Assembly: GCF_003058225.1 (NCBI RefSeq)
Contig: NZ_QBUG01000001.1
Location: forward strand, 1,116,001-1,180,000
Length of the DNA stretch: 64,000 nucleotides
Reading direction: 5' to 3'
From: Promicromonospora sp. AC04
GTDB taxonomy: Bacteria > Actinomycetota > Actinomycetes > Actinomycetales > Cellulomonadaceae
The translations under genes were made by a program, and so were the position numbers. Shown here piece after piece: positions 30,031 to 60,098 of the stretch (its first letter is position 1; each line of letters begins with the position of its first letter). The notes under the pieces are model-generated. The model ran no database searches. It saw only the letters and a list, made by a program, of their open reading frames with translations, and was not told the origin of the DNA.

Positions 30031-30086
30031 GCGCACGCGGGGCGATGAACACGGCGTCCAGGCCTCGAGCCGGGAAGGAAGACCTC

Positions 30087-37960: not shown

Positions 37961-38020
37961 TCGCCCGGTCATGGCCGACCTGTCGGAAGGGCAGGCGGAT
38001 CGACGAAAGGACGAGAGACG

Positions 38021-41193: not shown

Positions 41194-41234
41194 GACGGAT
41201 GGAACGTGACTCACTACCGAAAGGACTGGCACTC

Positions 41235-43307
41235 ATGGGCATTCTGGGAACCAGAACGGGCCGGCGGGTGGAGCGCCGCAAGAAGCACGACGAGCTCCTG
41301 TCCTCCGTGGTGCGGGAGACGCCCGTCCCCGCGGCCGTCGAGCTGCTGCGCTCGAACTCGCGGTTCGTCTTCCCCAGCGGCACGGCATGGGTCATCCTCG
41401 TGCTCACCGCCGACGCGATCGGAGGCCTGAGCCGGCGGCACGGCCGAGACGAGGCGAAGGGCTCGATCATCGAGCTCATCGGATCCGACCAGATCCACAC
41501 CGTGGCGACCGCTGAGATGCTCCAGGAGCAGGTCTTCGGCATCATCCCCACCGACGAGACACTCGCACGGATGGACGAGTACTCGTTGCTGACCGGTGCC
41601 GAGTACGCCTGGGCCGTCGTCTGGCAGAAGAACAGCGGCGAGCTGCTGGTCGACCTGGTCAACCCGGCAACCTTCGCCCAGGCCCGCGCGGTCGCCGGCG
41701 GCACCAGCAACCTCCAGGACGCCGTCGGCAGGCAAGCCTGGGCCGAGCACAGCGGCCTGGTCGACCCGGACGACGACGATCAGGGCAATGATCCCGCCGA
41801 CGCGAGCACGGCGGGCGCGGACGCAGAGGGCTTACGGGAGAAAGGCGTCGACGAGGACGAGATCTTCGACCCGCTCCCCGGGCAGGCAGCGGCCGAGGCC
41901 GACGAGCCGGTCTTCAGCGACACGCCCGATGAGGACGAGGCCGCCGGCACACCGGTGTTCGACGATGACACCGGCGCCCAGGCCCCTGTCGACGATCTGG
42001 GCGGCGCCCAGGTCGACGCTGGCACAGTTCTCCACGAGGCCGACCACGACGACGGCTACCTGAGCGACGACGTCGCGGGCCCCGAAGACGTCGTGTCGTT
42101 GGCCGACCAGGACCAGGTGCGCGAGGTGATCGCCCGCCGGTTCCTGACCGAGGACCTCGACCTCACGATCCGGCTCGACGAGTTCGACGCGACCTTCGCC
42201 ATCGGCGCGCCCGTCGTACAGATCGCCTTGCCCGACGGTGCCACCGAGTGGCTCGGTGACCAGCTCGCCCAGCTCGGCCGGCAGGCGAACGCGGACCTGA
42301 CTCGCCTGCGTTTCGCACACGAGGACGAGCTACGTGCGCTGTACGTCAACCTCATGTCGACACATGCTGAACAGGTCATCCGGGAGGTCGCCACCGACCG
42401 CGAAGGCGCCCGGTACACGCTCCTGAACGAGGCGGCGGAGGCCGAGCACCAGGAACGGCTCGCCGAGAAGGACCACCGGATCCGCGCTCGCAGGACGGAG
42501 ATCCTCGAGGACTACGAGGAGCAGGCAGCCAAGCACGCACGGCAGGCGGCGATGCAGGCCGAGATCCACTACAAGGAGCGCAACCGCCCGAAGATGGAGC
42601 GGGCGCAGGCTGACGCGGTCGCCGAGATCGAACGGGGCCTGGAGGACGACCGCTCACGCGACCAGCAGGAGATCCTACGGATCCGTCGCCAGCATGCGGC
42701 GTTGAAATTGCAGACCGGGCAGACACGGATCTTTGAGGTGCTGCAAGAACACCAGTCTCGGTACCTCGCCGAGGAGGAGGCATGCCTGACCCGGTGGAAG
42801 GTCGAGATCCAACACGTCGTCGACGACTACCGCAAGGCCGACATCGCTCAGGCCGAGACCCTGGCCGAGCACCACCGCATCACGGACGAGATCGGTGAGC
42901 TGCGTCAACAGCAGGAGAGCCTCCTGCAGTCGATGCGTACCGAGCACGCCGGCCGGATCCAGCGCATGGAGGACGAGCTCGAGCGAGACCGGAACGACAC
43001 CGTCGCACGGATGACGGCCCGTGACGAGGAGTGGCAGCACAGCCTCAACCTCGAACGGGAGAAGACCAGGTCCCAGACGGCACGGGTCGCAGACCTGCTG
43101 CGGCAGGTGGAGACCACCGAGGATGCGGTCGGCCGGCGTTACGAGGCACGCGTCACCGAGCTGACGGCCGACAAGGAGTCCTACGCCAACGCCATGGCTC
43201 GGACCGCTGAGATCCACGGCCGCTCGGGCAAGGCCTACGCGGTCCTTGCCGTCGCGATCTCGCTGCTGACGAGCATCGCGGGGTTCATCGTCGGCACCCA
43301 GGTGTAG
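41235..43307 (+). CDS. Long coiled-coil protein with C-terminal membrane anchor
   Basis: 690 residues from the ATG at 41235, with AAAGGA upstream; an ATG at 41190 overlapping the AAA+ stop is also possible. A 170-residue globular start is followed by an extremely acidic linker (residues about 175-290). A long coiled coil runs from about 340 to 640 (ARQAAMQAEIHYKERNRPKM, then ELRQQQESLLQSMRTEHAGR) and ends in a single membrane helix (YAVLAVAISLLTSIAGFIVG). It would project a long rod from the inner membrane. No function is known; a tether or scaffold for DNA processing is possible. Confidence 0.65.
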   Translation: MGILGTRTGRRVERRKKHDELLSSVVRETPVPAAVELLRSNSRFVFPSGTAWVILVLTADAIGGLSRRHGRDEAKGSIIELIGSDQIHTVATAEMLQEQVFGIIPTDETLARMDEYSLLTGAEYAWAVVWQKNSGELLVDLVNPATFAQARAVAGGTSNLQDAVGRQAWAEHSGLVDPDDDDQGNDPADASTAGADAEGLREKGVDEDEIFDPLPGQAAAEADEPVFSDTPDEDEAAGTPVFDDDTGAQAPVDDLGGAQVDAGTVLHEADHDDGYLSDDVAGPEDVVSLADQDQVREVIARRFLTEDLDLTIRLDEFDATFAIGAPVVQIALPDGATEWLGDQLAQLGRQANADLTRLRFAHEDELRALYVNLMSTHAEQVIREVATDREGARYTLLNEAAEAEHQERLAEKDHRIRARRTEILEDYEEQAAKHARQAAMQAEIHYKERNRPKMERAQADAVAEIERGLEDDRSRDQQEILRIRRQHAALKLQTGQTRIFEVLQEHQSRYLAEEEACLTRWKVEIQHVVDDYRKADIAQAETLAEHHRITDEIGELRQQQESLLQSMRTEHAGRIQRMEDELERDRNDTVARMTARDEEWQHSLNLEREKTRSQTARVADLLRQVETTEDAVGRRYEARVTELTADKESYANAMARTAEIHGRSGKAYAVLAVAISLLTSIAGFIVGTQV

Positions 43308-43436: not shown

Positions 43437-46400
43437 ATGGCTGTGAACAAGCGCAGGGCAGCCCGGCCGAAGGCGAACAGCTGGGACAAGATCTCGGCTC
43501 GCGAACCCGGCGAGACGCTGACGAACCGAGATGTCCACCAGGGCCAGCAGCTGGACCGCGGAAAGCTCCGCACCCGACGCTCGCGGACGCCCGTCGTCCT
43601 GGCCTCCGTCGTGATTGGTGCGATCGTGGCGGCCGCCGTCTGGGTCCTGTACTCGGTCATCGCCGTGGCGCTGACGTCCGTGGGCACGTCCCTCGGAGCT
43701 GCACCACACGCCACCGAGCCGGGCGCGTACTACATGGAGACCACCACCACCGGACAGGGCGGGGCGGTCGTGACCTGCTACCGGCCTCTGACCGAGGACG
43801 GCGAACCTGACCCACTGGCCACGTGCTACGACCACGCCGCGGACGTGCCGCTCCCCGACGGCTCCAGCGATGTGCGGGGCGACACGACCGCACAGGGCTC
43901 CACGACTGTCGTCAAGCAGCTGACCTCGGTCTCCCCGTTCAAGCTCTTCGTCGCGCTCGCCTCAGGGCTGCTGGTCACGCTCGTGCTCGGTACGTGGTCG
44001 GCTCGGGGGGTCGGTGCGGCGAACCTGATGAGCACGACGAGCGACATCAACCAGTACCCGAACGACCAGCACATCGCCCTGCCCGAGGAGATCCAGCGAA
44101 GTTTCGACTGGTTCCCGGACGCCGGCGCGCACTCGGACGTGCAGGTCAGCTCGGTGATCAGCCACGTGATGCTCAAGCAGAAGGGCCTGGGGACCGTCGA
44201 CGTGACCCAGCGTGCCCCGAAGGACCTCGTCGACGAGAACGGTGATGTCACCTACTACGCCGGCGAGGCTGTCGAGGACGACGAGGGCGAGCCGGTCACC
44301 AGATCCCTGCCGATCATTGACGAGGCGTTCGGGAACGATCTGTTCGAGGCCTCGGGTCTGCCGCAGGACAAGGCGCTGCGCAAGGCGTACGACACCACGG
44401 CCATCCCCTACAACCCGGACGGCAAGGACCGCGCCAAGCTCGGGACGTACAAGACGGTCGCCGACCTCATCAAGACCGACTGGTCCTTCCCGGACTACGA
44501 GGTTCAACGCCCGGCCGGGGCTTACCTGGTCGACACCGCACCCGTGAACACGATGGTGCTGGCCATCACCCGGGCTGGCAAGGGCCAGACCTACATCGAG
44601 CCGCAGATCGACATGTGGTCGCGCGAGAAGAACCCGTCGAACATGGTCATCAACGACCCCAAGGGTGAGCTGCTGGTCAAGTTCTACGTCCCGCTGGTGA
44701 TGCGGGGTTACGAGCCGGTGCAGTTCAACCTCATCAACCCCTTGGCCACCGACATCTACAACCTCCTGGGCCTGGCCGCCGAGGCCGCTCGCGAGGGCGA
44801 CGCGACCAAGTGCGCGGTCTACGTGGAGAACATCGCGGACGTCTTCTTCCCGCTCGACGGCGGCGAGGACCCGGTATGGCCGCACGCGGCGAACAACGCG
44901 TTCAAGCGTGCCGCCTACGGCCTGATCGACTTCTACCTCGAAGAAGAGCGTGAGCTGCGCGCCGCCGCGGCAGCCACCGGCATGGACCCGGAGAGCCTGA
45001 ACAAGCGGCTGGACGACATGTGGGGTGCGTCCACGCTGTACAACTGTTACCAGCTGTTCGTGCAGCTGACGTCGAAGAAGGTCAAGAACCCCGAGGCGGA
45101 GCTGGAGAAGAAGGTCAAGGCCGGCCAGTTCAACGACGACGAGCCGGGACTGGCCGAAGAGCAGGAGAAAGCCGCCGCGCAGGCGTTCCTGTGGGAAGGC
45201 AAGGCGGAGCAGGACATGCTCACGCTCTACTTCAACGCGACCGAGGCGCTGCCGCGCAACACGATGCGCACGCTGATCGGCAACGCCAACAACGCCCTGC
45301 GTGCCATGGCCGGCGCCGAGAAGATGCTCGCCTCCGTGTACGGCATCGCGATCACGGCCATGTCGTTCTTCACCGACCCGACGATCTCGACCCTCACCTC
45401 CGGCAAGCCCTCGCAGAACACGGATCTGGGTGGCCTGAGCTTCCCGCGCCGGTTCGGTGTGCGGTTCGCGGCGAACTACCTCAAGCGCGACCACCTCAAG
45501 GGCTTGCAGGCCCGGTGGTCGGCGTACGGGGACGACATGTTCAGCCACGACCTCGGCGAGGACTTCGAGCACTCCGACATCGTCGGCCGCGAGGGGTGGG
45601 CACGCTACTACTTCAAGGGGAAGTTCCCCACCGACCAGGCGTGGATCAAGCTCGAGCTGGTCAACCCGCAGACCAAGATGCTGGTGCGCACCTTCTATCT
45701 GCACTTCAAGAAGAGCTACCAGGTCTCGCTCAGCGGCCGGCACTACGTCACCGAGCCGGTCACCGGCAAGAAGGTCGTCAAGAACGGCGTTCTGCGCGAG
45801 CTGAGGCCGGTGCGCGAGGGCACGGGGAAGGACGCGACGATCGTCTCGTTCGAGCCAGCCGACACGACCTACCCCCAAGCTCGGCTGGACTTCGCCGGCG
45901 GTGGCAATCCCGAGATCGTCGAGGACGCCGCCCGAGCGATCACGCAGACGATGGTGCGCTACTCCGAGCTGCCAAAGGCCGTCTTCCTGGTGACCCCTCC
46001 ACACCTGATGAAGTACGCCAAGCTGATCCTGATCCTGGTCAAGCAGCTCGTCGACCTGAACTTCGACAAGTCGTACATGACCAAGTCGGACCAGAAGCCC
46101 CTGTACAAGACCAGGTTCATGCTCGACGAGCTGGGCAACCTCCAGTCAGAAGGTCACGGCATCGCCGGGTTCGAGACGATGCTCTCGATCGGGCTCGGGC
46201 AGGAGCAGCAGTTCACGCTCATCCTCCAGACCCTGCAACAGCTGAGAGACGTCTACGGCGAGAGCGTGGACAAGATCGTGCAGGGAAACACCTCCAACAT
46301 CGTGTTCCTCAAGTCGATCGACGACTCGATGATCGAGACGCTCGAGAAGATGTCGGGCAAGACGCACAGGTCCTACATCGACTCCAAGCAGGTCAGCCAG

Positions 46401-47438
46401 GACGTCGACCGGGTCGTCGGAGGCAAGACGGAGGGCCGCGTCACCTACACGATGAACACCAAGGAGGAGCCACTGATCTCCTACAACGACATGGCGTTCA
46501 TCCCACCACGAAACTCGATCGTCTTCCGGGCCGGTGACGCGCCCGTCTGGAACAGGAACGAGACGATCTTGCCGATGTCGTGGCGCCTGCTGAAGGACAC
46601 GATCACCCACCCCGGGCACGACTACACGCTGCAGGACATCCCCACGCTGTCCTCGGCCATCGACTTCGACGTGCGCAACAACCAACCCGACTTCGTCAGG
46701 ATGCTCGACAAGCGCATGCGCCAGGCGGTCCGCGCCGCAGACGCCAAGACGCTCTACCAGGAGACCTACCGCTACCGAGACGTCGACATCGAACGCCTCG
46801 ACCCCGACGTCTACTCCGACGAGGTGATGGAGATCATCACCCTGATGACCGCAGCCGACGAGGGACACGACCCAGGTGCTCCGACCGTCGTGGACCCCGA
46901 GGCCTACGAGGCCACGATGATGCTGGACGAGGACCAGTTCATCGAGAACGTCGAGCTGGCCAGGCAGGTCGCCGAACGCGAGACGGCCCGCGCCGAGCGG
47001 GAGCGCCTGGTCTACGCCGAGGAGACGATCAGCAAGGAGATGCTGATCAACCCCGACGGCTCGGCGAAGATCAAGACGCTGGACGCCGAGATCAGCGAGG
47101 CCTACAGGTCAACACAGACCGACCTCGAGCAGGACCGCGAGCACTTCCGCGTCGGCGGTGACGGCGAGCTGCGCAGCGCCGACGGATCGCAGACCTACAT
47201 CAGCCAGGTCCGTTCGAGCGCGTACACCAGGGCTGCCCGCCAGATCAACGACCAGGCCACGAGACAGCGATCGCGGGTCTTCGCCGAGGCCGACATCACC
47301 GAGGAAGACATCGAGTCCCTGTCGACCGTGCAGGTTCACGCTGCCTTCTACCAGTACCTGGCCTCGCTGCCGAGCTGGGAGATGCTCGCCGACGGTCAGT
47401 TCGACCGGGCGATGGCCATCGAGATGCGATCGAAGTAG
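43437..47438 (+). CDS. VirD4/TraG-type coupling ATPase (large)
   Basis: A 1333-residue protein. Two membrane segments lie near residues 52-80 (VVIGAIVAAAVWVLYSVIAV) and 168-190 (FKLFVALASGLLVTLVLG), separated by an outer loop. Walker A is AITRAGKGQT near 380, followed by VINDPKGELL; Walker B is FMLDELGNLQSEG near 893, followed by the Q-rich sensor LILQTLQQLRDVYGE. This set is diagnostic of T4SS coupling proteins that dock the relaxosome. It is about twice the length of VirD4, with insertions between the Walker motifs and a long charged C-terminal tail. Confidence 0.88.
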   Translation: MAVNKRRAARPKANSWDKISAREPGETLTNRDVHQGQQLDRGKLRTRRSRTPVVLASVVIGAIVAAAVWVLYSVIAVALTSVGTSLGAAPHATEPGAYYMETTTTGQGGAVVTCYRPLTEDGEPDPLATCYDHAADVPLPDGSSDVRGDTTAQGSTTVVKQLTSVSPFKLFVALASGLLVTLVLGTWSARGVGAANLMSTTSDINQYPNDQHIALPEEIQRSFDWFPDAGAHSDVQVSSVISHVMLKQKGLGTVDVTQRAPKDLVDENGDVTYYAGEAVEDDEGEPVTRSLPIIDEAFGNDLFEASGLPQDKALRKAYDTTAIPYNPDGKDRAKLGTYKTVADLIKTDWSFPDYEVQRPAGAYLVDTAPVNTMVLAITRAGKGQTYIEPQIDMWSREKNPSNMVINDPKGELLVKFYVPLVMRGYEPVQFNLINPLATDIYNLLGLAAEAAREGDATKCAVYVENIADVFFPLDGGEDPVWPHAANNAFKRAAYGLIDFYLEEERELRAAAAATGMDPESLNKRLDDMWGASTLYNCYQLFVQLTSKKVKNPEAELEKKVKAGQFNDDEPGLAEEQEKAAAQAFLWEGKAEQDMLTLYFNATEALPRNTMRTLIGNANNALRAMAGAEKMLASVYGIAITAMSFFTDPTISTLTSGKPSQNTDLGGLSFPRRFGVRFAANYLKRDHLKGLQARWSAYGDDMFSHDLGEDFEHSDIVGREGWARYYFKGKFPTDQAWIKLELVNPQTKMLVRTFYLHFKKSYQVSLSGRHYVTEPVTGKKVVKNGVLRELRPVREGTGKDATIVSFEPADTTYPQARLDFAGGGNPEIVEDAARAITQTMVRYSELPKAVFLVTPPHLMKYAKLILILVKQLVDLNFDKSYMTKSDQKPLYKTRFMLDELGNLQSEGHGIAGFETMLSIGLGQEQQFTLILQTLQQLRDVYGESVDKIVQGNTSNIVFLKSIDDSMIETLEKMSGKTHRSYIDSKQVSQDVDRVVGGKTEGRVTYTMNTKEEPLISYNDMAFIPPRNSIVFRAGDAPVWNRNETILPMSWRLLKDTITHPGHDYTLQDIPTLSSAIDFDVRNNQPDFVRMLDKRMRQAVRAADAKTLYQETYRYRDVDIERLDPDVYSDEVMEIITLMTAADEGHDPGAPTVVDPEAYEATMMLDEDQFIENVELARQVAERETARAERERLVYAEETISKEMLINPDGSAKIKTLDAEISEAYRSTQTDLEQDREHFRVGGDGELRSADGSQTYISQVRSSAYTRAARQINDQATRQRSRVFAEADITEEDIESLSTVQVHAAFYQYLASLPSWEMLADGQFDRAMAIEMRSK

Positions 47439-47500
47439 GACGCACGGCACCCACGAGGCCGCTGCCACTCACGCCGGGCTGACCACCAGCCATCGAGCCG

Positions 47501-47585
47501 CACCTTTGTCATTGATTATTAGATAGGTCATCGACACCTTTGTCATACGTGGCATACGATCAATTCACTACCTATGACATCCGAG
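47501..47585 (+). promoter_or_regulatory. AT-rich promoter-like island P3 before the polymerase gene
   Basis: CACCTTTGTCAT occurs twice (47501 and 47537), the first within GTCATTGATTATT (47508-47520), the P1/P2 motif. GATCAATTCAC (47558-47568) resembles GATCATTCAC of P2, and CCTATGACAT is the near complement of ATGTCATAGG at P1. It is the only stretch without a gene between 43437 and 53151 apart from short spacers, and lies 25-105 bases before the polymerase start. Confidence 0.6.
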
Positions 47586-47607
47586 CGTCCGCAGGGGGCT
47601 GATCAGC

Positions 47608-50600
47608 ATGAGGAAGGCACACGGTCTGCGCAGGTACTTCTACGAGTACGTCTTCTACAAGGCCGTCGAACGGGCGAGAGACCAGACCAACCAGGTCATC
47701 CCGATCTCTCAGGCCAAGGCGATCCGCGCGCGCGTCGACGAGATCCTCGCGGCGCAGGGCACGGCGGTGGCTGATCCGCAGCTCGGGGTGCCCGCCTGCC
47801 TCACCGCCGTCGACCGCGCGCTCGGCGAGCGGGTGCCGGGGTACGTCGACCAGTTCGGTGACCACTCCTCGGGTGACGAGCGCTACCAGCAGCTCCAACG
47901 AGAGTTCACCCAGCAGACCGGCGTCGGGTCCCCGAGCGCCACGGCGTCGGCCCGGCTTCCGATCAGCCCGTACGACCCGGCCTGGTCGGCACGCGCGAGC
48001 GTGAAGCGTGCGGGAACCGGCCTGCTGTATCTCCCCGACGAGACGATCACCCGAGTGGCCGGCGGTGCGGTGGAGACCCTGGCCGACCCGCGACGGGGCA
48101 ACATGGTGCTCTGGCGTATCGATGACGAAGGCCGTCCCTACGAGGCAGGCCGTGCCATGACCAACGACGATGCGGCAGGGCTCACCGCGCTCATGGACAA
48201 GATGAGCCAGCAAGAGTACGCGCAGGTTCGTGAGTGGGTCATCGACGGTGGCCGGGACCCGCGCACCGGCCGGGTCGACCACAACCGCTTCATGTCGCCG
48301 AAGGCCGTGGCCCGTGCGGCGGCCCTGCTCGAGGAGCTCAAGGCCCAGGGACTGACCTACCAAGTGGTGCGCGACCGTGAACCGGGCCAGATCAAGGCGA
48401 AGATCGCAGGAACAGGCATGGAGATCCGGTTGACCGACAGCCGCCAGGAGGACTACGCGGGTGCTCGGATCTACGACAACGGCACCGTGCTGCGCTACTC
48501 GACCAACCATCGGGTCCCCGGCGGTATGGCGGTCCACTCCCCCACGCCGGCCGAGGCCGTGCAGCTGCTGCGTTTCGCCCAGGGCCGGCGGATCGAGCGC
48601 ACCGACCTGCCGGGACGGGCAGTCGGTGAGATCGGCACGACACACCCGGAGCAGAGCCGCGGTCGCACCGTCGTGGACGTCCCCGATGCCTACCACGTCG
48701 ACCGGGAGTCGATGTTCGTGGTGGGCGACTACGTCGCCCCCGGCCCGTCCGGCTCGCGGCGCGGGTCGAAGATCATGCTGCGCCGCGACGCGAAGAACAG
48801 GTCGCTGGCGACGTTCTTCGTCGACGTCGAGCCCGCACAGAGCTATGTGCAGGAGGCCGTGCGCAGCGCCCGGGAGAACCTGCTGGGCGCCCTCGGTGTC
48901 GAGAGTCTCATCGCCCACGCACAGGCAGAGCACGAGCGCACCGGCGGCCAGATCGACGCGATGCAGCTTCCGGGCTACTCCCCTGACCCGGAGATCGCCG
49001 CGATCCAGCGTTCGTACTGGGACGTGCTCACGGGAGCACGCAGCGATCTGTTGCGCCCGGGCGCGACGCAGGAGATGTACCAGGATCGGCTGGATGCGAT
49101 CGGCGAGCTGCAGTCGGGCGAAGAGCCCCAGCTGGGCAACCTCGTCTACGGCGGCACGAGCGCCGAGAAGGTCCGCGCACACGCCGAAGACGTACCCTTC
49201 GAGCTCGTCGGGACCTGGCAGCCGCAGCTGCACGACGTCGACGGCGAGTGGGTCGAGCAGCGCTTCGACCCTGGCCGGGTGGCGAAGTACATGACCAGTC
49301 CGACCGGGCAATGGTCGAACCTCGACAACTTGGCCGCTGCCCTGCGGCGTTGCGAGGTCTCCCCGAGCGAGATGATGGGATCTGACTTCCAGACCACCCG
49401 GTTCAAGGATCGCCTCGTACGCTTCGACGCCGACCGTGCCGTCCCGATCGCCGAGCACCACTCGCAGTTCCTGCGCCGTATCGGAGACACCGTGCGAGAG
49501 AGCCTCGAGCGAAATGCGGTGCGGCCGTCCGCGATCCTGGTCGACGGCCAGGGCGTCATCCGGTGGCAAGGCGCCAAGCTGCGTCGTGACGGGCGGTCCA
49601 CGGAGATCTCCGGCGAGCTCGGGCAGGTCTTCGACATCGGCCGGCACGGTGAGATCACCACCGCCCTCGCCAGCGGGGAGAACGCTCTGATCGTCCCCGG
49701 CTACGAGGCCCGGATCGCGGCGCAGACCCCCGGCACGGCGCCGGCCTCGGTCGAGGAACGCACGCGGCTGCGCGGCTACGAGCAGCTCATGCACGAACGG
49801 ATCCAGTACCAGATCGCCGGCGACCTCGTCACGGGACGCAGTCAGACCGGTGAGCCGGCCTCGCTCAACACGGTCTACTCGCAGCTGTACGGCACGAAGC
49901 ACCCGGTCGATTTCATCGAGCGCGCCACGACGTACGAGATAGAAGAGACCACCGGTGAGGTCCGCGCGCACCTGGACGCATGGACGGTCTCGATCCTGGC
50001 CACCGAGGCACGTCGGGTGCGCTACTCCAGCGAGATCAAGCACGGATCGACCATCTACGCGGAGTACCGCGCCGACCGCGACCGCACAGATCCAGCTGAC
50101 GATAACCACTTTGACGCCTGGCAGCTGACCGGCGGACGGAACATGGCGGTGCTCACCGGCACGGGCCGGGACAACGCCCCGACCCCGGGTGGGTACTTCG
50201 ACCCGGTGATGACCGGTGGCGCGACCAACCAGGGCATCGTGCGCTACCTGACGCAGGACGCGGCGGTCGCCCCGGACGGCTCCATCCGCCCGGGCGACCC
50301 CGCGACCCTGACGGGTTCGCGGGCGCCGCTGATGTGCCGGCCTGAGCTCGAGACCCTGCGCTACGACCCGTTCGACCGCCAGCAGATGACGGCCTCGACG
50401 ATCATGCAGTCCTCACAGGTCACCCGACCCACCGGCACAGCGCTGATGACGTTCGGCGGGTGGACGGCTGACGACCCGATCGTGATCAGCTCGCGGTTCG
50501 CTCAGGCGCACAAGATCCGAGGCATTGGTGGCCGGCTGCGCGACCTCGTCGTCGGGGACAAGATCAGTGACCTGCACGGCAACAAGGGCGTCGTCTCCCT

Positions 50601-53151
50601 GATCGTCGACCGCGACATGCCGCCAAGCACGGCACGTCAGCAGGGCATCGAGGACGAGGTCGCGTGGTTCCGTCAGAACCCTGGACTGGACGTGGTGATG
50701 AGCCCGTTCTCCCTGATCTCGCGACGCAACGCGGGTTCCGCCCGGGAGCTCATGGCGGGGCGGCTGGACGACCTGCGTTCTCCCGGTGGCCAGGTACAGC
50801 CCGGCGGCCTGGGCCAGATGCGGTTCGTGGTCACCCACATGGCGGTCGACGAGAAGACGAAGATCTACGACGAGGCTCAGCTGCGCGCCGGCAGGGGCCG
50901 CAAGGCCTCCTCGCAGCTCGCGTGGGCGCTGCAGGCTCAGGGCTGCCCGGCGATCATGCGGGAGTTCTACGGGCACAACTCGGGCGCCGAGTCGAACCTG
51001 CGCGAGTACCTGCTGGTGGTGGGTATGGACATGGAGGCGGACGGCACCCTACGGGTGGTCGGTCAGGCCGAGGCCGTCGACGAGCGTCCCGAGCGCCGGA
51101 TGATCACCATGCCCGAGCTGCTGCGCACGCAGCCGCGCAGCCCGGGGCAGCGCCCGGGGCTGAACACCACGGGGATGCGCAGGTCGTTCGGCCAGCTGAT
51201 CGGGGACCGGGGCGGAGACATGGAGATCCCGTTCCCCCTGAGGTACCCGACCGGTGAGGAGACCGAGACGGCCAGCGAGGTCTCGTGGAGGTTGCCGGTG
51301 ATGTCCTCGCACCTGCGCAGCGGCCAGGAGTTCGACGACGGCGCCTCGGTCACCCACGACTACACCCGCAGCTATCAGGACGTGTTCGTCGAAGCCTGCC
51401 GCTACCGGTACATGGCCGAGCAGCTCGAGGGCGGCGGCGGCCTGCCCGCGCAGAAGCGCAGCGAGATCCAGCAGAGCATGCGGGATGCGGTCTCTCGGGC
51501 TCAGCGAGCCTTCGAGGCGATCACGACGGACGTCGCCAGCCGGGTCCTGACGGGGAAGAACAACACCTTCAAGACCGGTCTGATGTCCTCGCGGCTGTCC
51601 GACTCGGCGACGATGGTGTGGACCGCGGACCCGCGGCTCGATGTCGACCAGGTCGCGCTGAGCTCGGTCAAGGCCCGTCAGCTCGGGCTGGCCGAGGGTG
51701 ACCACGCTCTCGTCTGGCGTGATCCGGTGCTGCGCGACGCGGGTGTGCGCTACCTGCGGGTCGCGATCGACGACCGGCTCACCGGCGCCGCGATCAACCC
51801 GGTGATGGACAAGTGCTTCGACGGCGACTTCGACGGCGACGCGGTCGCCGTGGTCAAGCTGCACAGCGACGCGGCACGGGCTGAGGCGATGGACAAGCTC
51901 TCGGTGCCCGCGAACCTGCTCGACACCGGCGTCACCGGTCCGGACGGGACGCACCCGCTGGCTATGCAGGTATCGCTGGACACCCAGGTCGCCGTCTCGA
52001 AGCACCCGGTCCTCGCCGAAGACCTGAACAGTGCACGCAAGGAGGCCAACCGGCTGCGGTTCGTCGACTACGAGCCCGCGGAGCTGCGCGCGTGCCGGGA
52101 GAACGTCACCGAGGAGCTGAGCGCCTTCTACCGGACGGCGCAACGCTCGGAGTTCGGCGCCGCGCTCGTCTTCGGTGACCGGCAGTCGCATCTGCGCAGC
52201 GTGCGGCAGGTCTGCGTCGAGACCGGCGCCAAGGGCAACCAGCAGAAGTTGGCCGACTACGCACGGAACCTGGGCGACGAGCGGGGTGTACCCGGCATCA
52301 CCCAGGCCGATCAGGAAGCGTCGATGTTCGCCACGGCGATCAAGGCTCACGGCACGGGGCTGGGCGGCTCATTCAGCCAGCGCGCGGTGCGGGCCCTGCG
52401 CGGCCAGGACCTGAAGGCGGTCCTGGAGCTGACCTATCCGGTCACGCAGTCGATCCTGCAGGCCAAGCACGACGCCGCAGAGGCTCGCCACAAGTACGCG
52501 ATGCTCCAGGGGCCCGGCCGTGACCTGTGGCGGGGTCGCCGGCTCGAGCACGTGGGCCCAGGCCAGTGGCGCACCCCGCTGACCGACGGCGAGCCGGTCC
52601 AGGCCACGGTCGAGGAGTGGGAAGCGCAGTTCTGCGACTTCTACACCTCCACAGAAGGCTTCGGCGTCGAGGTGAATCCCGCCTACGTCACCCGTATCGC
52701 CCACGCGCTGGAAGACCGCGGCACGGGGCTGGTCCGCAACCTCGAAGAGGACCCGTCGCTGCGCGGCACCGTCATGGACCGGATGGCCTACGGCGGGACG
52801 TTCGCCGACCTGGTCGAGGCGGCCAAGAACCGCGAGAACGTCTACGACGGGCAGATGAACGAGCAGTTCGCAGCCACCGGCACCCGCACAGCACGCGCCG
52901 AGACGGACCGACAGCTCGCCGCGCTCGACGTCTACGGCCCGGACGGGATCGACAGCCACCCGATCGTCGTCGACGACTCGCTGATCAAGGCCGACGTGAT
53001 GGTCCCTGAGGACCAGGGGCACCGGACGCGGGGCGCCGGCCGGCGGTCGCGGCATGCGGTGGTCGTCGGGGCACCCCGCCCGGTCTATGCACCGAGCATC
53101 GAGGTCGAGCAGCAGCGGACCAGTACAGACGACTACGGGATGGGGTACTGA
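47608..53151 (+). CDS. Single-chain two-barrel DNA-directed RNA polymerase (RpoB-RpoC-like fusion)
   Basis: An 1847-residue protein. RpoB landmarks appear in order: DPFDRQQMTASTIMQSSQ from about 920, GGWTADDPIVISSRF near 950-964, GDKISDLHGNKGVVS from 983 with both catalytic-centre lysines (985, 993), and LDVVMSPFSLISRRNAGS near 1027. RpoC landmarks follow: GKNNTFKTGLMSSRLSD near 1316, DPVLRDAGVRYLRV near 1372, and DGDFDGDAVAV at 1405-1415 with the metal-binding aspartates D1407, D1409 and D1411. Thus both double-psi barrels sit in one chain, beta part first. The 900 residues before and 430 after are not recognisable. The size is well below beta plus beta-prime, so many host-polymerase lineage domains are missing. 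Relatives are known in phages and prophages (YonO, crAss-type, C. glutamicum NCgl1702). Confidence 0.93.
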   Translation: MRKAHGLRRYFYEYVFYKAVERARDQTNQVIPISQAKAIRARVDEILAAQGTAVADPQLGVPACLTAVDRALGERVPGYVDQFGDHSSGDERYQQLQREFTQQTGVGSPSATASARLPISPYDPAWSARASVKRAGTGLLYLPDETITRVAGGAVETLADPRRGNMVLWRIDDEGRPYEAGRAMTNDDAAGLTALMDKMSQQEYAQVREWVIDGGRDPRTGRVDHNRFMSPKAVARAAALLEELKAQGLTYQVVRDREPGQIKAKIAGTGMEIRLTDSRQEDYAGARIYDNGTVLRYSTNHRVPGGMAVHSPTPAEAVQLLRFAQGRRIERTDLPGRAVGEIGTTHPEQSRGRTVVDVPDAYHVDRESMFVVGDYVAPGPSGSRRGSKIMLRRDAKNRSLATFFVDVEPAQSYVQEAVRSARENLLGALGVESLIAHAQAEHERTGGQIDAMQLPGYSPDPEIAAIQRSYWDVLTGARSDLLRPGATQEMYQDRLDAIGELQSGEEPQLGNLVYGGTSAEKVRAHAEDVPFELVGTWQPQLHDVDGEWVEQRFDPGRVAKYMTSPTGQWSNLDNLAAALRRCEVSPSEMMGSDFQTTRFKDRLVRFDADRAVPIAEHHSQFLRRIGDTVRESLERNAVRPSAILVDGQGVIRWQGAKLRRDGRSTEISGELGQVFDIGRHGEITTALASGENALIVPGYEARIAAQTPGTAPASVEERTRLRGYEQLMHERIQYQIAGDLVTGRSQTGEPASLNTVYSQLYGTKHPVDFIERATTYEIEETTGEVRAHLDAWTVSILATEARRVRYSSEIKHGSTIYAEYRADRDRTDPADDNHFDAWQLTGGRNMAVLTGTGRDNAPTPGGYFDPVMTGGATNQGIVRYLTQDAAVAPDGSIRPGDPATLTGSRAPLMCRPELETLRYDPFDRQQMTASTIMQSSQVTRPTGTALMTFGGWTADDPIVISSRFAQAHKIRGIGGRLRDLVVGDKISDLHGNKGVVSLIVDRDMPPSTARQQGIEDEVAWFRQNPGLDVVMSPFSLISRRNAGSARELMAGRLDDLRSPGGQVQPGGLGQMRFVVTHMAVDEKTKIYDEAQLRAGRGRKASSQLAWALQAQGCPAIMREFYGHNSGAESNLREYLLVVGMDMEADGTLRVVGQAEAVDERPERRMITMPELLRTQPRSPGQRPGLNTTGMRRSFGQLIGDRGGDMEIPFPLRYPTGEETETASEVSWRLPVMSSHLRSGQEFDDGASVTHDYTRSYQDVFVEACRYRYMAEQLEGGGGLPAQKRSEIQQSMRDAVSRAQRAFEAITTDVASRVLTGKNNTFKTGLMSSRLSDSATMVWTADPRLDVDQVALSSVKARQLGLAEGDHALVWRDPVLRDAGVRYLRVAIDDRLTGAAINPVMDKCFDGDFDGDAVAVVKLHSDAARAEAMDKLSVPANLLDTGVTGPDGTHPLAMQVSLDTQVAVSKHPVLAEDLNSARKEANRLRFVDYEPAELRACRENVTEELSAFYRTAQRSEFGAALVFGDRQSHLRSVRQVCVETGAKGNQQKLADYARNLGDERGVPGITQADQEASMFATAIKAHGTGLGGSFSQRAVRALRGQDLKAVLELTYPVTQSILQAKHDAAEARHKYAMLQGPGRDLWRGRRLEHVGPGQWRTPLTDGEPVQATVEEWEAQFCDFYTSTEGFGVEVNPAYVTRIAHALEDRGTGLVRNLEEDPSLRGTVMDRMAYGGTFADLVEAAKNRENVYDGQMNEQFAATGTRTARAETDRQLAALDVYGPDGIDSHPIVVDDSLIKADVMVPEDQGHRTRGAGRRSRHAVVVGAPRPVYAPSIEVEQQRTSTDDYGMGY

Positions 53152-53152
53152 G

Positions 53153-54913
53153 ATGGCGCAGCGCAAGGATCTGGGGACGGGTCCGGCGGGCCGGTCCCGC
53201 GCGAGCAGGGCACTGCCGGTCAGTTCGGACGGCACCGTGCACCTCGACCATGCTCAGGCGGCCGACGATCCCGTACGGGGCGCAGAGCCGGACGCCGGAG
53301 AACCGGTGGACACGGATGACTCGCAGCCCTGGCACGAGAAGCTGCGAGACAGCGTCCGCGGGTTCTTCGGTGCGACAGCCCGGGAGCGGATGAGTGACCG
53401 TGACGAGGTGCACCGCATCGACGTCGAGCGTGCGCAGGATGAGCGCGAGGGCATGGACGAGCGTGAGCAGCTGCTGAAGCTGCGCGCGGAGACGCGGCTT
53501 GCGGGCGAGGCGTACATGGCTTCGCTGCGGGCGTCCAACCTGCTCGTGCCCGGGTTCAACGACGACGAGCGCGACAAGGAGCTCGACGTCATGCATCACG
53601 TGTACATGCAGATGATGATGCAGTCGTGCCTGAAGCCTCTCGCTCGTGGCGTCAGCACGGGCACGGTCGTGCAGGCTGCAGGGATGATGGTGGCGATGCG
53701 GATGCTCGCGCCTGACTTCAGGCAGGAGATGGACACCTATCTCCAGCCGTTCAAGGACATGGTGCAAGAGCGCATCGACCGCCGAACGAGGTACGTGGGT
53801 GACTGGGCCGAGGGCCAATCCCGGTCGTACAACCGGCGGATCGACGACCGCGCCCGTGCGCTGGTGCGTGAGAGGCCGTCGGCGGCTGCGGCCGCCCGTT
53901 CGGTACACGGCCAGGAGGGTCACAAGGCCAGCCGAAGTTCCTTTCTGTCGAGACGGTGGCAGCGCAGGCTGGACGACCTCGAGCGGCGTGAACGGGGCAA
54001 CAGGGAGCTGTACACCCCGGACTCCGCGGCGATGACGGAGGTCGCCCTCATGGAGAACGCCTTCTGGAGGATGCGTGAGCCAGACGCCGACGCCGGCCAG
54101 ATCTTCGACAGCTACCGTGCGATGCGCAAGCGGCTGCGCGACCAGATGGACCACGACGGCGTGGAGCGCTCGGAGATGGTCACCCGCGCACGGATGATCA
54201 TCGGTGAGCGAATGGAGTACGAGCCGGAGCTACGCACGATGTTCAACGGCATCGCCCACGGCCGCATCGTCAAGGCTGCCCCGCGTCAGGAGCGGATCGG
54301 GGGAACGGACCACGTGCGTGCGGTCTGGAGCGGCCAGTTCGAGGACCAGCTCGGCCAGCGCCTGCCCGATGACGGGATGTTCACGCTGCGCCGCCCGATG
54401 GACGCGACCTCTCATCAGGTGCAGCTCGCCGAGACGATGACGACCGCCTTGCTCCATGCACTGGACCGAGAGGACCAGGAGGCTTTCGCGGCCAACGTGC
54501 AGGGCTACATGGTCGGCTTCGCTGCCCGCAGGCACGGGTTGAACACCCGCGGACTGCCCGGCACGCTCGGAGACCGCCTGGACCAGTGCGAGGTGATGAT
54601 CGCGAGCATGGCCATCGACGGCCTGACGCCCGAGGAGCAGCAACGCGTGTACTCCAACGCCTACGTCGACGCGATGGAAGCGGCCGGCGAGAAGCATCCC
54701 GACCTGGCACACGAGCTCCGGCTGGCCCTGGGGGACGGCTGGCAGCAGACCCTGCAGAGAGCGGTCGACGACCCACAGGCCTTCTACGAGGAGCAACGGC
54801 TCAGACCACGGCCCTACCGAGCGGGTCCTGGACCTTCCAGCGAGCAGGCCGATGACTTCGACCCCGAGACCCCGGACCAGAGGCCCGGCACCGCCGGGTA
54901 CCAGCACTCATGA
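53153..54913 (+). CDS. Hypothetical partner of the polymerase
   Basis: 586 residues from the ATG at 53153, one base after the polymerase stop, so translation is tightly coupled. The sequence is almost entirely helical and charged: GMDEREQLLKLRAETRLAGE, ELDVMHHVYMQMMMQ, then AMTEVALMENAFWRM and RSEMVTRARMIIGERMEYEP. No sigma-factor region 2 or 4 signature, zinc finger or catalytic motif is visible. Because of the gene order, a polymerase accessory or DNA-recognition factor is the first hypothesis; a structural transfer protein is the alternative. Confidence 0.6.
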   Translation: MAQRKDLGTGPAGRSRASRALPVSSDGTVHLDHAQAADDPVRGAEPDAGEPVDTDDSQPWHEKLRDSVRGFFGATARERMSDRDEVHRIDVERAQDEREGMDEREQLLKLRAETRLAGEAYMASLRASNLLVPGFNDDERDKELDVMHHVYMQMMMQSCLKPLARGVSTGTVVQAAGMMVAMRMLAPDFRQEMDTYLQPFKDMVQERIDRRTRYVGDWAEGQSRSYNRRIDDRARALVRERPSAAAAARSVHGQEGHKASRSSFLSRRWQRRLDDLERRERGNRELYTPDSAAMTEVALMENAFWRMREPDADAGQIFDSYRAMRKRLRDQMDHDGVERSEMVTRARMIIGERMEYEPELRTMFNGIAHGRIVKAAPRQERIGGTDHVRAVWSGQFEDQLGQRLPDDGMFTLRRPMDATSHQVQLAETMTTALLHALDREDQEAFAANVQGYMVGFAARRHGLNTRGLPGTLGDRLDQCEVMIASMAIDGLTPEEQQRVYSNAYVDAMEAAGEKHPDLAHELRLALGDGWQQTLQRAVDDPQAFYEEQRLRPRPYRAGPGPSSEQADDFDPETPDQRPGTAGYQHS

Positions 54914-54943: not shown

Positions 54944-55306
54944 ATGAGCGATGACCAGCAGGCTGCCGAGACCCGGTACGGGTCACGTCTGGCGCGGATG
55001 TTCGGCTTCGTCACGGCTGAGGACCGCAGCCGGTGGGAGCAGGAACGGTCGCAGAACAAGGGTCACGTCAACGCCGTGAAGAAGGCCGCGAAGACGTCGC
55101 TGAGCTCGATGATGGAGTTCGGGGAGCGCAACATCGGCTCGAGGCTCGACGCAGCCCATCGCGTGGCGGCGCAGACCCGGTTCGAGGAGTCTCACGAGAG
55201 GGTCGTGAGCACGCATCGCGACCCGCGAACTCGTTCGATCGTGGAGACGGTCGACTACGAGCCCAAGGACGACCGCCAGGAGATCGAACCGGACGTCGAG
55301 ATCTAG
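54944..55306 (+). CDS. Small charged hypothetical protein
   Basis: A 120-residue protein with GAGGAG five bases before the ATG. It is highly charged and helical (EDRSRWEQERSQNKGHVNAV, then KKAAKTSLSSMMEFGERN) with an acidic tail (DDRQEIEPDVEI). It is the last gene of the polymerase transcription unit, followed by a strong terminator. No family is recognised. Confidence 0.55.
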   Translation: MSDDQQAAETRYGSRLARMFGFVTAEDRSRWEQERSQNKGHVNAVKKAAKTSLSSMMEFGERNIGSRLDAAHRVAAQTRFEESHERVVSTHRDPRTRSIVETVDYEPKDDRQEIEPDVEI

Positions 55307-55386: not shown

Positions 55387-55815
55387 TCAGTGTTCGGTCT
55401 CAGCGAGCCTGTGCTGCAGCTTCGCGTCGAGCTTGCGCCGCAGCTCGATCGTCTCGGGCGACGGGTCAGCGGCCTGGACGTGGTCAGCAGCCTGTCGGCC
55501 GGACTCGAACAGGTCGGCGTCGGTGCGGTAGCTCAGCAGTTCGTCGTACTGGTCACTGGTCAGGTGCCCGGTCATCAGAGCCATGCGGGCGCCGAGGTTG
55601 TGCTCCATCGGGTGGCAACTGGCCCAGCCGGAGCAGATCCGACCGTTCTCCTGGTGGCACAGGAACAGTTTGCCCGGTTGCTCCCATGTCTCCGCATCGT
55701 ATTCGGACAGGATCGCGGCCTCCTCCGGGTGCCATAGGCCGACGGGAGCGTCCCGGCGGTAGGGGCACGACCCACACGGGCTCCGCGCCGGCAGCGGCGG
55801 GGGCTGGTTGCTCAT
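55387..55815 (-). CDS. DUF6283 family protein
   Basis: A 142-residue protein. SPCGSCPYRRDAPVGLWHPE, then LFLCHQENGRICSGWASC, is the pattern of DUF6283 (a CxxC plus C...C cluster likely to bind zinc or an Fe-S centre). These proteins occur on actinobacterial phages and mobile elements and have no assigned role. The C-terminus is a charged helix. Confidence 0.75.
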   Translation of the reverse strand: MSNQPPPLPARSPCGSCPYRRDAPVGLWHPEEAAILSEYDAETWEQPGKLFLCHQENGRICSGWASCHPMEHNLGARMALMTGHLTSDQYDELLSYRTDADLFESGRQAADHVQAADPSPETIELRRKLDAKLQHRLAETEH

Positions 55816-55879
55816 GCGGGCTCCAAGCGATCGGCGACACGGTGACGGGACACGGCGGCAGGACGAACCGCCGCCGATC

Positions 55880-56917
55880 TTACGGACCGACGACGCTCTT
55901 GGTCAGCGGGTCGACCTGCGTGCTGATGGCCGAGGTGAGCCAGTACGTCTCGCTGGGGCGGACGATGCCGCCTTGGTGACCCTGGCATGCCAGGTCATGG
56001 GCGCCGTCCCAGGTGAGCGGCCCGTGGGAGATGACCGCGTTGGTAGGTGCGTCGAGGCCAGGGTGGGTGTGGTGATGGAGGCCGCGGCAGGCCGAGTCAT
56101 CGTCCTTGTCCAGCTTGAGGGCACAGCACTCGCAGAGTATGAGCGTCTTGTCCGCTGCACCGGTCCCACCGGTCTGCGAGGGCGCGTCGGCCCCGGAGAC
56201 GACATGGCCGGCAGGGTGGTTGGCGGTAGGAGGCTCGGAGCTGGTGAGCCCATCGGCACCGCGGGGGCGCAGTTTCGCATGCCAGCCCCCGAGGACGTGC
56301 GCGGGCGTGGGCCAGATGTCGCGCCGCTCCATGGTCAGGGTGTTGCCGTGCACGACGATCGCGGGGACGTGCAGCAGCGCCAGCTGGATGTACGTCATGT
56401 GCACGGCCGTGCTGTCGATGTCCTGAGCGGTCACGTGCATGGACGTCTGGTAGTTCACCCCGGCGTCGCGCAGGGCCTCAGCGGTCGCGATGACCATCCC
56501 GCCCGATCCACAGGTGGGCTCGCCGACCGTCACGAACTCCTGGGTCTGCAGGCGCTGGACCAGGTCCCCAGCGGTTATCCTCGCGGCGAGCACGCTGACC
56601 TCGTACGGCGTGAAGAACTGCCCGAGGCGCTGGTTGCCGAGATCGAGGCTCATGTACAGCGTCCCGAGGACGTCCGACAGGCGGGCCTGCAGCTCCAGCG
56701 TGAGGTACGCCAGTGCGGTGGCGAACCGGTCCATCTCCTCGGGCGTGTAGGTCGCGGCGATGGAGAGATACCGGTCCTCGCGCTCATCGAAACCACGTCG
56801 CTGGACAACGTTGCGGATCGCGAGAGCGCCCAGCTCGCAGAAGTCCTGGAAGACCTGCGTCACGCGCCGCCGCCCCGACCCGGTGTTCGCTTCCAGGAGC
56901 TTCTTCAGGGTCGTCAT
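55880..56917 (-). CDS. N6-adenine methyltransferase-like protein without NPPF/Y motif
   Basis: A 345-residue protein. GQFFTPYEVSVLAARI followed by VGEPTCGSGGMVIATAEAL are the motif X and SAM-binding motif I of type I-like (HsdM) N6-adenine methylases, and MHVTAQDIDSTAVHM is motif II. The expected catalytic NPPF/NPPY that should follow is absent: HGNTLTMERRDIWPTPAHVL occupies that place. The C-terminal part has CECCALKLDKDD, a CxCC cluster. It may bind SAM without methylating DNA, or act on another substrate. No restriction enzyme gene adjoins it. Confidence 0.7.
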   Translation of the reverse strand: MTTLKKLLEANTGSGRRRVTQVFQDFCELGALAIRNVVQRRGFDEREDRYLSIAATYTPEEMDRFATALAYLTLELQARLSDVLGTLYMSLDLGNQRLGQFFTPYEVSVLAARITAGDLVQRLQTQEFVTVGEPTCGSGGMVIATAEALRDAGVNYQTSMHVTAQDIDSTAVHMTYIQLALLHVPAIVVHGNTLTMERRDIWPTPAHVLGGWHAKLRPRGADGLTSSEPPTANHPAGHVVSGADAPSQTGGTGAADKTLILCECCALKLDKDDDSACRGLHHHTHPGLDAPTNAVISHGPLTWDGAHDLACQGHQGGIVRPSETYWLTSAISTQVDPLTKSVVGP

Positions 56918-56932
56918 GGCGCGGGCGCTCCT

Positions 56933-57640
56933 TTACTCTCGGTCGTTGTCCGTCCCTGCGTCGTGGCTGACGTACTGCGCGAGAAAGTCGCTGCTGGTCG
57001 GGTCGAAGGCGTGCTGCTCGGTGAAGGCCCGCAGGTACTGGGCCGGCTCGGTGCTCCCGGGCCGCTCGCGGACGGCACCGACCGCGTCTGCGATCCACTG
57101 GAGCTCATCCGCGCCGGACCACTGCGGCTGGGTGCCGAGTCCCAGTGCGATCGCGTCGACGACGTCGGTGTCGGTGACGTGTCCCGGGTTGCCGTTCTTC
57201 CGGGCGAGCGGCTTGCTGTAGTCGCGGATGAAGCCCATGGCCAGCAGCACAGGTTCGGGCAGCTTGTCGGCGTCCCACATCGCGTCGGCGGCGTCCGTGG
57301 GCGCGCCTCCCCAGGACCGGCCGGCGGAGAAGTAGATCTCGTAGCCGGCTACGACCAGGAAGCTGGTCTGGTTGGACGCAAGCGCTTCCTCCAGGCTGTC
57401 GATGATCGCGGCACCCGCCTGCTGCGCGTACGCCAGGATCGGCTGACCGTGGTCATCAGTGACCTCGACGGTGTGGTGGAGATCGGGCAGGAGGTCGCGG
57501 ATCTCGTTATCGGGGTCGTCGAAGGTGAACTGGGAGACGTCGTCGGTCTCCTCAAGCGTCCGGCGGCCGTGGTCAAAGTCTGGCGGTTCGATGCGGTCGG
57601 CCGGGACGGCGAGGGTCCCGATGAGCATGGACGAGCTCAT
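56933..57640 (-). CDS. Hypothetical acidic protein
   Basis: 235 residues from the ATG at 57640, with AAGGAG upstream. It is acidic and alpha/beta (AAIIDSLEEALASNQTSFLV, then AGYEIYFSAGRSWGGAPTD). It has the flavour of an anti-restriction (ArdA/DUF-type) or other acidic mobile-element protein, but without a recognisable motif. It lies 15 bases upstream of the methyltransferase-like gene. Confidence 0.55.
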   Translation of the reverse strand: MSSSMLIGTLAVPADRIEPPDFDHGRRTLEETDDVSQFTFDDPDNEIRDLLPDLHHTVEVTDDHGQPILAYAQQAGAAIIDSLEEALASNQTSFLVVAGYEIYFSAGRSWGGAPTDAADAMWDADKLPEPVLLAMGFIRDYSKPLARKNGNPGHVTDTDVVDAIALGLGTQPQWSGADELQWIADAVGAVRERPGSTEPAQYLRAFTEQHAFDPTSSDFLAQYVSHDAGTDNDRE

Positions 57641-57697
57641 GGTGGTGGCTCCTTGCGGGGTGGCAGGTATGGAATCGGGACGCGTAGGCGTCGAGGG

Positions 57698-58069
57698 TCA
57701 GTTGCCGGCGCGAACCCACCCCAGGACGTCATCGACCGAATCGCTGTAGTTGGCTGCCACGGCTGCCTCGAGGTCGGCGTCGGGCGACTCGAGGAACGTC
57801 AGCGTCGCGTTGACGACGAGGTTGATCGCGTCACCGACACGGTCGTCCTGTGCTGCGAGGTCTGTGACGGCGTCGGCAGCACGGTTGAGCGCGCCGCTGA
57901 TCTGGTCGCGGGAGAAGGCACGAGGGCCGTTTGCGGCGCACTTTCCGGACTCGTGCTCTTCGGCCCATCGGCGCTGGTCACGCTCCTGGTTAGCTGGCGA
58001 GGTGTAGTTCCCAGAGGTGTCGCGCTTCTCGCCGCAGTTCGGGCAGTCGACGTAGCGGGGTGTGGCCAT
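57698..58069 (-). CDS. Small zinc-ribbon protein
   Basis: 123 residues from the ATG at 58069 (MATPRYVDCPNCGEKRDTSG). The N-terminal CPNC and a later HESGKC form a probable zinc site; the remaining helices (GALNRAADAVTDLAAQDDRV) are acidic. No family is assigned. Confidence 0.55.
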   Translation of the reverse strand: MATPRYVDCPNCGEKRDTSGNYTSPANQERDQRRWAEEHESGKCAANGPRAFSRDQISGALNRAADAVTDLAAQDDRVGDAINLVVNATLTFLESPDADLEAAVAANYSDSVDDVLGWVRAGN

Positions 58070-58218
58070 GGTGCGCTCCTGGGTCGGGGTGGGTTCGGGA
58101 CGTCGCGCCGCCAGCCAGGGCACGCCGAGCGGGACCCCTCGGGGTCTGCCCGGCGCGAGCGCGGTGCAGGTCGGCGGGCAACCACGGCCGGCGGTCGTGC
58201 GCGCCGACAGACGTCGCT

Positions 58219-59301: not shown

Positions 59302-59366
59302 GTGTGGGTCTCGCTTTCGCTGGAGTCGTGGGTGGCAGTGGTGCCAGTGCGTCGACGGCTGGGTGC

Positions 59367-59984
59367 TCAGCGGATCGGTAGCGACTGGCCGGCGGGCCGG
59401 TACGTGCCGTGGTCCTCGTCAAGCACGGACTCCGTCAGGCAGACGGTGGCCGGCATGAGGAAGGTCGCCACCAGCGCTGCCAGGCGCTGTTCGTCGTCGA
59501 GCACGCTGTCAGGGATGTGGCCCGGGGCGGCGAAGAACTGCTGGGCGCGCTCGATGAGGCTCGTGGTGCGGCCGGCCCGGTCGGCGAAGTGCTCGGCGAC
59601 CATCTGGCCTGGGCCGTACTCGGTGATGACCGAGTAGAGCGTCCGGGGTGCCGCAGTCCTCTTCTCGGTGGTGCTCACGTACACCTGGATGCCCCAGGCG
59701 CGGCAGAGCTTGGCGATGGCGTTGACGACCGAGTCGGGATCGGTACGCCACTGCGAGACGTGCGCGTGGTGGAGGTCGTGGACGCGGCCGGCGCGGTCGG
59801 AGGTGATCGTGTCGGCCAGGATGTCCGAGGCGGTGAGGATCCCGACGCACACGTTCAGGCGCTGTTCGGCCGTGGCGTAGTGGTCGTGGAAGACGACGCG
59901 GTCGTCGTGGCAGACGATCAGGTCGTAGGTCGTGCAGGGGCCCGGGGCGAGCTCGCCGGAGTCCCGGATGCTGGGCGCGTTCAT
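59367..59984 (-). CDS. Hypothetical protein
   Basis: 205 residues from the ATG at 59984. It is alpha/beta (TYDLIVCHDDRVVFHDHYAT, then LNVCVGILTASDILADT) and ends LPIR. No catalytic motif is recognised. It lies between the AAA+ and helicase genes on the same strand, so it may be their partner. Confidence 0.55.
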   Translation of the reverse strand: MNAPSIRDSGELAPGPCTTYDLIVCHDDRVVFHDHYATAEQRLNVCVGILTASDILADTITSDRAGRVHDLHHAHVSQWRTDPDSVVNAIAKLCRAWGIQVYVSTTEKRTAAPRTLYSVITEYGPGQMVAEHFADRAGRTTSLIERAQQFFAAPGHIPDSVLDDEQRLAALVATFLMPATVCLTESVLDEDHGTYRPAGQSLPIR

Positions 59985-60098
59985 CGGTGTGCTCCTTCGG
60001 GCTGCGTCCCTAGGCCGGGAGAGGGGGAAGACCACGGCCGCGGGCGCACCTGAGCAGTGCGAGACGCCCGCGGCCGTGGGTCTGGGGGACGGTGGTCG

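Follow-up and report, generated by a model that had tools for sequence, protein, structure and literature searches.

Single-chain RNA polymerases with two barrels are a known kind of enzyme, encoded by phages, plasmids and other mobile elements (available sections of PMC10770324 and PMC7824862). YonO of SPbeta, a chain of about 100 kDa, transcribes the late genes of its prophage (PMC5467207, in excerpt). The virion RNA polymerase gp96 of P23-45 (PDB 8h2n) transcribes pre-early genes, proposedly while the DNA enters, and is fused to the phage tail tape measure protein, as far as the available sections of PMC10770324 describe it. In the NCgl1702-like polymerases, which are found in mobile elements, the flap insert is absent (PMC7824862, available sections).

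Here, a putative polymerase of this type was identified among conjugation genes of Promicromonospora sp. AC04, in a stretch of 64,000 nucleotides analyzed as a whole (hereafter the window). Its gene (47608-53151, plus strand) is one stop-free frame of 1847 amino acids, as a preliminary description of this DNA had claimed, and the motifs named there (DDPIVIS, GDK...HGNKG, SRRNAG, GKNNTFKTGLM and DFDGD) are indeed all carried by the one chain. In a single-sequence Pfam search, residues 977-1056 (50536-50775, plus strand) match Rpb2_6 over the cut-off (E=3.5e-7). This RpoB-type barrel segment contains GDK...HGNKG, with K985 and K993, as well as SRRNAG. The RpoC-type barrel segment (residues 1361-1429; 51688-51894, plus strand) contains DFDGD (D1407/D1409/D1411) and matches Rpb1_2 with E=1.1e-4 and 23.0 bits, below the cut-off of 25.3. 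At E<=1, Pfam-A gives nothing else in the polymerase, and no T7-like polymerase domain.

Profile comparison, a kind of check proposed in the preliminary description, matched both barrel families. A profile of the RpoB half (residues 860-1215) finds RpoB (1iw7_C) with E=2.9e-11, while the whole-family profile, made from 17 aligned sequences, finds Rpb1 (E=1.6e-14) and bacterial beta' (E=2.7e-12). In all 17 rows, whose identity to the window protein goes down to 23%, residues K985, K993, D1407, D1409 and D1411 are unchanged. Together, these profile matches and catalytic residues support a single-chain polymerase of the two-barrel type. Recognizable stretches are also kept outside the barrels in the family alignment, for instance GKNNTFKTGLMSSRL and GAKG. 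The latter belongs, with HGTGLGG, to a conserved region (residues 1539-1587; 52222-52368, plus strand) that we take, by eye, to be bridge-helix/trigger-loop-like. The N-terminal 640 residues (47608-49527, plus strand), which align with 10 actinobacterial relatives, have no convincing PDB match (best E=0.54). PHROGs gives weak matches at most, the best of them with a family of RNA polymerase beta (E=0.0014), and the defense library has no match for the polymerase or its downstream neighbor. The dN/dS ratio of the polymerase gene is 0.19-0.30 in the 10 pairs computed; hence, the gene is under purifying selection. Protein alignments and dN/dS exclude the near copies L002, L008 and L009 as well as L016 and L017, whose polymerase frame is shortened; L003 and L021 are further excluded from alignment A1.

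AlphaFold2 was run twice on 14 sequences, for residues 640-1765 and 855-1465, and yielded models of low confidence (mean pLDDT 57.4 and 59.5, respectively). The RpoC-type barrel region is middling in the longer model, with ten-residue pLDDT means of about 50-88; the RpoB-type region is poor there and mixed in the shorter model (about 27-83). In Foldseek, the best 50 rows for each of these low-confidence models appear RpoC/Rpb1-like, as judged by chain letters, the listing giving entry titles. The best E-values are 1.7e-10 (640-1765) and 6.6e-8 (855-1465), with low TM-scores of 0.16-0.32 by query length. The predicted structures thus support the RpoC barrel only. Since the models are of low confidence and the matches shown look to be on the RpoC side, it is the sequence and not the structure that supports two barrels.

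A further feature of the polymerase is found just upstream of its RpoB-type barrel segment, where the flap insert is missing. In the 14 of 17 rows measured by the pattern used, the two RpoB-type segments are separated by 21 residues (13 rows) or by 24 (the Lactococcus row). At the same position, the host's own RpoB has 143 residues, and in the RpoB of 1iw7_C the two matched barrel segments, at chain positions 714 and 823, are about 110 residues apart. The predicted RpoB-type barrel therefore has no SBHM flap. In cellular enzymes, the RpoB flap holds sigma. As the flap is missing, the enzyme should not engage host sigma in the usual way. Independence from host sigma factors, put forward in the preliminary description, is made more plausible by this absence, itself read from sequence. 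That the polymerase may transcribe the transfer or early-entry genes, also put forward there, gained no support from a simple k-mer search, which gave no shared non-host promoter motif.

Judged by its absent flap and single chain, the enzyme is built like the members of the flap-less single-chain group (YonO, NCgl1702-like), and it can be placed by its motifs and profile matches among the known single-chain two-barrel polymerases of mobile elements. Cellular RpoB/RpoC are its strongest profile matches; however, they form two chains with a sigma-binding flap, where the element polymerase has one chain and no flap. Among solved structures, the best single-sequence match is 8h2n (E=2.4e-5). This is gp96 of P23-45, which has DFDGD in common with the element polymerase but differs from it in being fused to a tail tape measure protein (PMC10770324, available sections). 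The P23-45 companion gp64 aligns weakly to the family, with an hhalign probability of 4.9-14% (alignments A1 and A5). Going by its description, YonO is likewise a single chain with two barrels serving a mobile element, but its size contrasts with the 1847 residues found here (PMC5467207, in excerpt). The NCgl1702-like enzymes share the flap absence and the mobile-element setting, a likeness drawn from their description in the available sections of PMC7824862. Of 14 control genomes, Corynebacterium glutamicum alone carries MobL, and it is one of the six with a VirD4-domain match, five of these six being over the cut-off. We take NCgl1702 to be a protein of this species. The two matches hint that NCgl1702 sits in an element of the same kind, to which it may belong.

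The genes that surround the polymerase gene on the plus strand are those of a transfer cluster. On the upstream side are a tyrosine-type integrase (26071-27303), a cell-wall hydrolase with Phage_lysozyme2 and CHAP domains (29790-32264), a MobL relaxase of 763 residues (35587-37878) and a small ORF conserved in 9 of 23 loci (37700-38554), which has no Pfam match and for which the label SSB-like is a mere guess. These are followed by a ClpA/B-like double AAA+ ATPase of 632 residues (39295-41193), a conserved 705-residue protein with no family over the cut-off (41190-43307) and a VirD4-type coupling ATPase of 1333 residues (43437-47438). On the downstream side, a candidate partner of the polymerase is encoded by a 619-residue ORF opening at 53054. 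That position had been taken as its start and is corrected here: the likely start is at 53153, one base past the polymerase stop, which gives a protein of 586 residues (53153-54913, plus strand) with no convincing PDB match (best E=1.1). A small protein of 120 residues, conserved in 17 of 23 loci, comes next (54944-55306, plus strand).

In tblastn searches, every one of 20 actinobacterial loci (L001-L017, L019, L021 and L022) has the genes for the ATPase, the 705-residue protein, VirD4, the polymerase and the 619-residue ORF in collinear order. Some matches are partial in L016 and L017, which are included in this count. In these loci the polymerase gene therefore generally has the coupling ATPase gene before it and a conserved gene behind it, the arrangement noted in the preliminary description. 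A Clostridia contig (L018) starts within the polymerase gene, and a homologue of the 619-residue ORF comes next there too.

The ends of the element were not located: ARAGORN predicts no tRNA across 115 kb surrounding the window, and the best direct repeat shared by the left and right parts of the window has 23 bases at 96%. Two tyrosine integrases are encoded on opposite strands, at 15818-17095 and 26071-27303. An opposing cluster occupies 55387-63971 on the minus strand, with DUF6283, an N6 adenine methylase-like protein, an AAA ATPase, a UvrD/GajB-like helicase of 1002 residues and a second Clp-like AAA protein; it could be a leading region or defense cargo. At 21499-24096, an OLD/AriA-like ATPase with a weak TOPRIM match is defense-like.

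The association between polymerase and transfer genes is also observed on plasmids. A search of 72,556 plasmid records with the polymerase gives 13 matches, from Streptomyces (1), Gordonia (1), Rhodococcus (1), Staphylococcus (5) and Lactococcus (5), all of them annotated as hypothetical protein. The ten Staphylococcus and Lactococcus matches cover 31-43% of the polymerase length. The window VirD4 matches 687 plasmids, of which the best 12 (325-1942 bits) are all polymerase plasmids; within the best 60, the top of the 48 rows below them has 146 bits. The Lactococcus polymerase plasmid pJM4A (NZ_CP122373) has no VirD4 among these best 60 of 687 matches, nor was one found in its 43.9-90.8 kb stretch; this plasmid, which carries the polymerase and a Clp-like ATPase, is perhaps a decayed element. 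In the Lactococcus plasmid pJM1A, the polymerase gene and virD4 are about 32 kb apart. MobL and VirD4 are present in the five plasmids searched whole. Hence, a predicted relaxase and a predicted VirD4 coupling protein are both found in the window and in plasmid relatives. The 705- and 619-residue neighbors were undetected in the Staphylococcus and Lactococcus stretches examined. What appears new, judged from predicted gene content, is that one polymerase lineage is a conserved gene of a conjugation system of the MobL/VirD4/ClpA/B type, in both Actinomycetota and Bacillota. Among the papers listed in a literature search, none was seen to describe such a polymerase in a conjugation cluster, with the likeliest source, Iyer and Aravind 2012, lying outside its coverage. 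The Gordonia plasmid pGKT2, which carries the module, was transferred to three recipients (review PMC5640721, available sections); such transfer may not have required the polymerase, and some of the functions could have come from outside pGKT2.

No VirB4 was detected among the window proteins scanned. On plasmids, the VirB4 domain P-loop_TraG was found in 0 of 5 and AAA_10 in 0 of 3, searches that a diverged VirB4 could escape. An AAA_10 match above the cut-off does occur elsewhere in the host genome, on contig C3, and this protein could serve in trans. Homologues of the ClpA/B-like ATPase are carried by one Gordonia, two Staphylococcus and two Lactococcus plasmids, and this ATPase may stand in for VirB4. 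The combination of no VirB4 yet a ClpA/B-like double AAA+ ATPase was observed in window 28000-55300, NC_018580, NZ_CP007602, NZ_CP109461, NZ_CP016746 and GQ900386.

How the polymerase itself might be expressed was examined in the leader of its gene. The VirD4 and polymerase genes are separated by 169 bp (47439-47607, plus strand) with a -10-like block recognized by eye, a correction to the preliminary description; they need not, therefore, share one transcript. The gap is 156-264 bp in the 11 elements measured. In most of the 14 aligned elements a -10-like block can again be made out by eye, as can leader sequence conserved close to the start codon. A sigma-70-like scan of 43.2-55.5 kb gave one site, at 47531-47560 in this leader, against 0.6 expected, which is chance level; the same scan of a Streptomyces plasmid (L021, 5800-25600), including the equivalent leader, gave none with 1.2 expected. 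Together, the -10-like block and the sigma-70-like site weakly suggest that the polymerase would be made by the host polymerase, separately from virD4.

A promoter shared by the transfer genes and foreign to the host was searched for with upstream k-mers, a simple and weak test; in the window, in Streptomyces and in Gordonia, shared k-mers were about as frequent as after shuffling. A Staphylococcus excess looks like a ribosome-binding site. Among the repeat families listed for 28-64 kb, the largest seem to reflect similarity of coding sequence, and Rfam has no match in 26-64 kb. Terminator-like sites number 6 in 43.2-55.5 kb, all on the minus strand (3.6 expected, sd 2.3), and 7 in L021 5800-25600 (7.6 expected, i.e. 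chance). Several gaps between transfer genes in L021 5871-20000 and in L022 form strong GC-rich hairpins, as though terminators kept the genes apart; strong hairpins were seen in some Streptomyces and Gordonia gaps.

With a probability of about one half, we propose that the one-chain polymerase is a core component of this conjugation system and works, free of sigma, on element DNA around the time of transfer. The constant company of relaxase, coupling protein and ATPase makes it more likely a part of the transfer program than a passenger. The flap-less enzyme would start RNA without host sigma factors, perhaps with help from its N-terminal 640 residues and, where the element is actinobacterial, from the product of the gene one base downstream. 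In the new host, it would make the first transcripts, or an RNA primer for the second strand, and the element would thereby be freed from dependence on the sigma factors of the recipient. Transcripts are made from single-stranded promoters in the leading regions of plasmids. By analogy with this precedent and with virion polymerases proposed to act as DNA enters (P23-45 gp96; PMC10770324, available sections), we favor a polymerase that works on the element once it is in the new host, through first transcripts or a primer. Relatives of the enzyme accompany these transfer genes in soil actinobacteria, staphylococci and lactococci alike, which suggests that transfer of this kind comes with a transcription machine of its own. 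One can also imagine, although we find it unlikely, a conjugative counterpart of a virion RNA polymerase: the polymerase passes the channel with or ahead of the DNA, transcribes the entering strand and possibly helps to draw it in, the ClpA/B-like ATPase taking the place of VirB4.

If our proposal is correct, conjugation of this type would be independent of the recipient's sigma factors, which could explain how one type of element works in actinobacteria, staphylococci and lactococci. It would also open a direct route to studying how the genes of a conjugative element are switched on at arrival. In that case, finders that require VirB4 may moreover miss a family of conjugative elements; ICEscreen, for instance, uses VirB4 as a marker (PMC9513070, available sections).

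The main rival to action in the new host is transcription of the transfer genes in the donor. The polymerase would then be a regulator acting on the transfer operons there, as YonO does for late genes (PMC5467207, in excerpt), and never in the recipient. The promoter-like block seen by eye ahead of the polymerase gene, apart from virD4, fits such a scheme, since the host polymerase could make the element polymerase first. On the other hand, in three relatives from Streptomyces (L001, L004 and L021) the AAA ATPase gene also shows, by eye, a -10 block of the host type, and the weak k-mer test gave no common non-host motif upstream of the transfer genes. Overall, we regard donor-side regulation as possible but doubtful. 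The polymerase might also be primase-like only, laying down the RNA primer for the second strand after single-strand transfer and transcribing no genes. No primase family occurs among the element proteins scanned, and rolling-circle plasmids of Gram-positive bacteria prime their second strand with RNA polymerase. However, host enzymes usually suffice for this step, and a protein of 1847 residues with conservation beyond its barrels is large for a primer maker, so that we judge this restricted role improbable. That the protein has ceased to be a polymerase, and keeps barrel sequences in a structural or DNA-handling role, would agree with a first barrel not established in the low-confidence models but is hardly credible given catalytic residues invariant in every aligned row.

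Returning to the family as a whole, the polymerase is found in 1 of 13 genomes of the genus (E<=1e-5) and in 1 of 394 of the class sample (E<=1e-25). Matches at E<=1e-5 occur in 269 of the 296 genomes that sample the phylum, with a full-length match in G000 alone and 9.4e-15 as the next best; among those listed, the remaining matches are short segments consistent with cellular RpoC. Exact-peptide seeds recovered at least 19 loci, a lower bound. A phage origin was considered and rejected: searches of 50,697 phage records with the window protein and with the Staphylococcus member stayed empty at E<=1e-5. Alignment A1 gave 73 weak hits in IMG/VR, with E=2e-6 at best; 68 of these are confined to the RpoB side. 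When exact peptides of the Clostridia and Staphylococcus members were used to scan IMG/VR, no relative came up. The sole IMG/VR match spanning both sides (L044) was discarded, because a fused polymerase with full RpoB/RpoC domains, on a contig with a terminase-like gene, represents another family.

Weak similarity to the Staphylococcus member (E=2e-6) is seen over a short stretch of 12 Clostridioides difficile plasmid records, NZ_CP149712 among them; this stretch carries the annotation rpoB in 11. A close relative (L001, 78%) lies on a 717-kb contig of Streptomyces turgidiscabies Car8, the strain in which the mobile island PAISt is known (PMC4057263, available sections).
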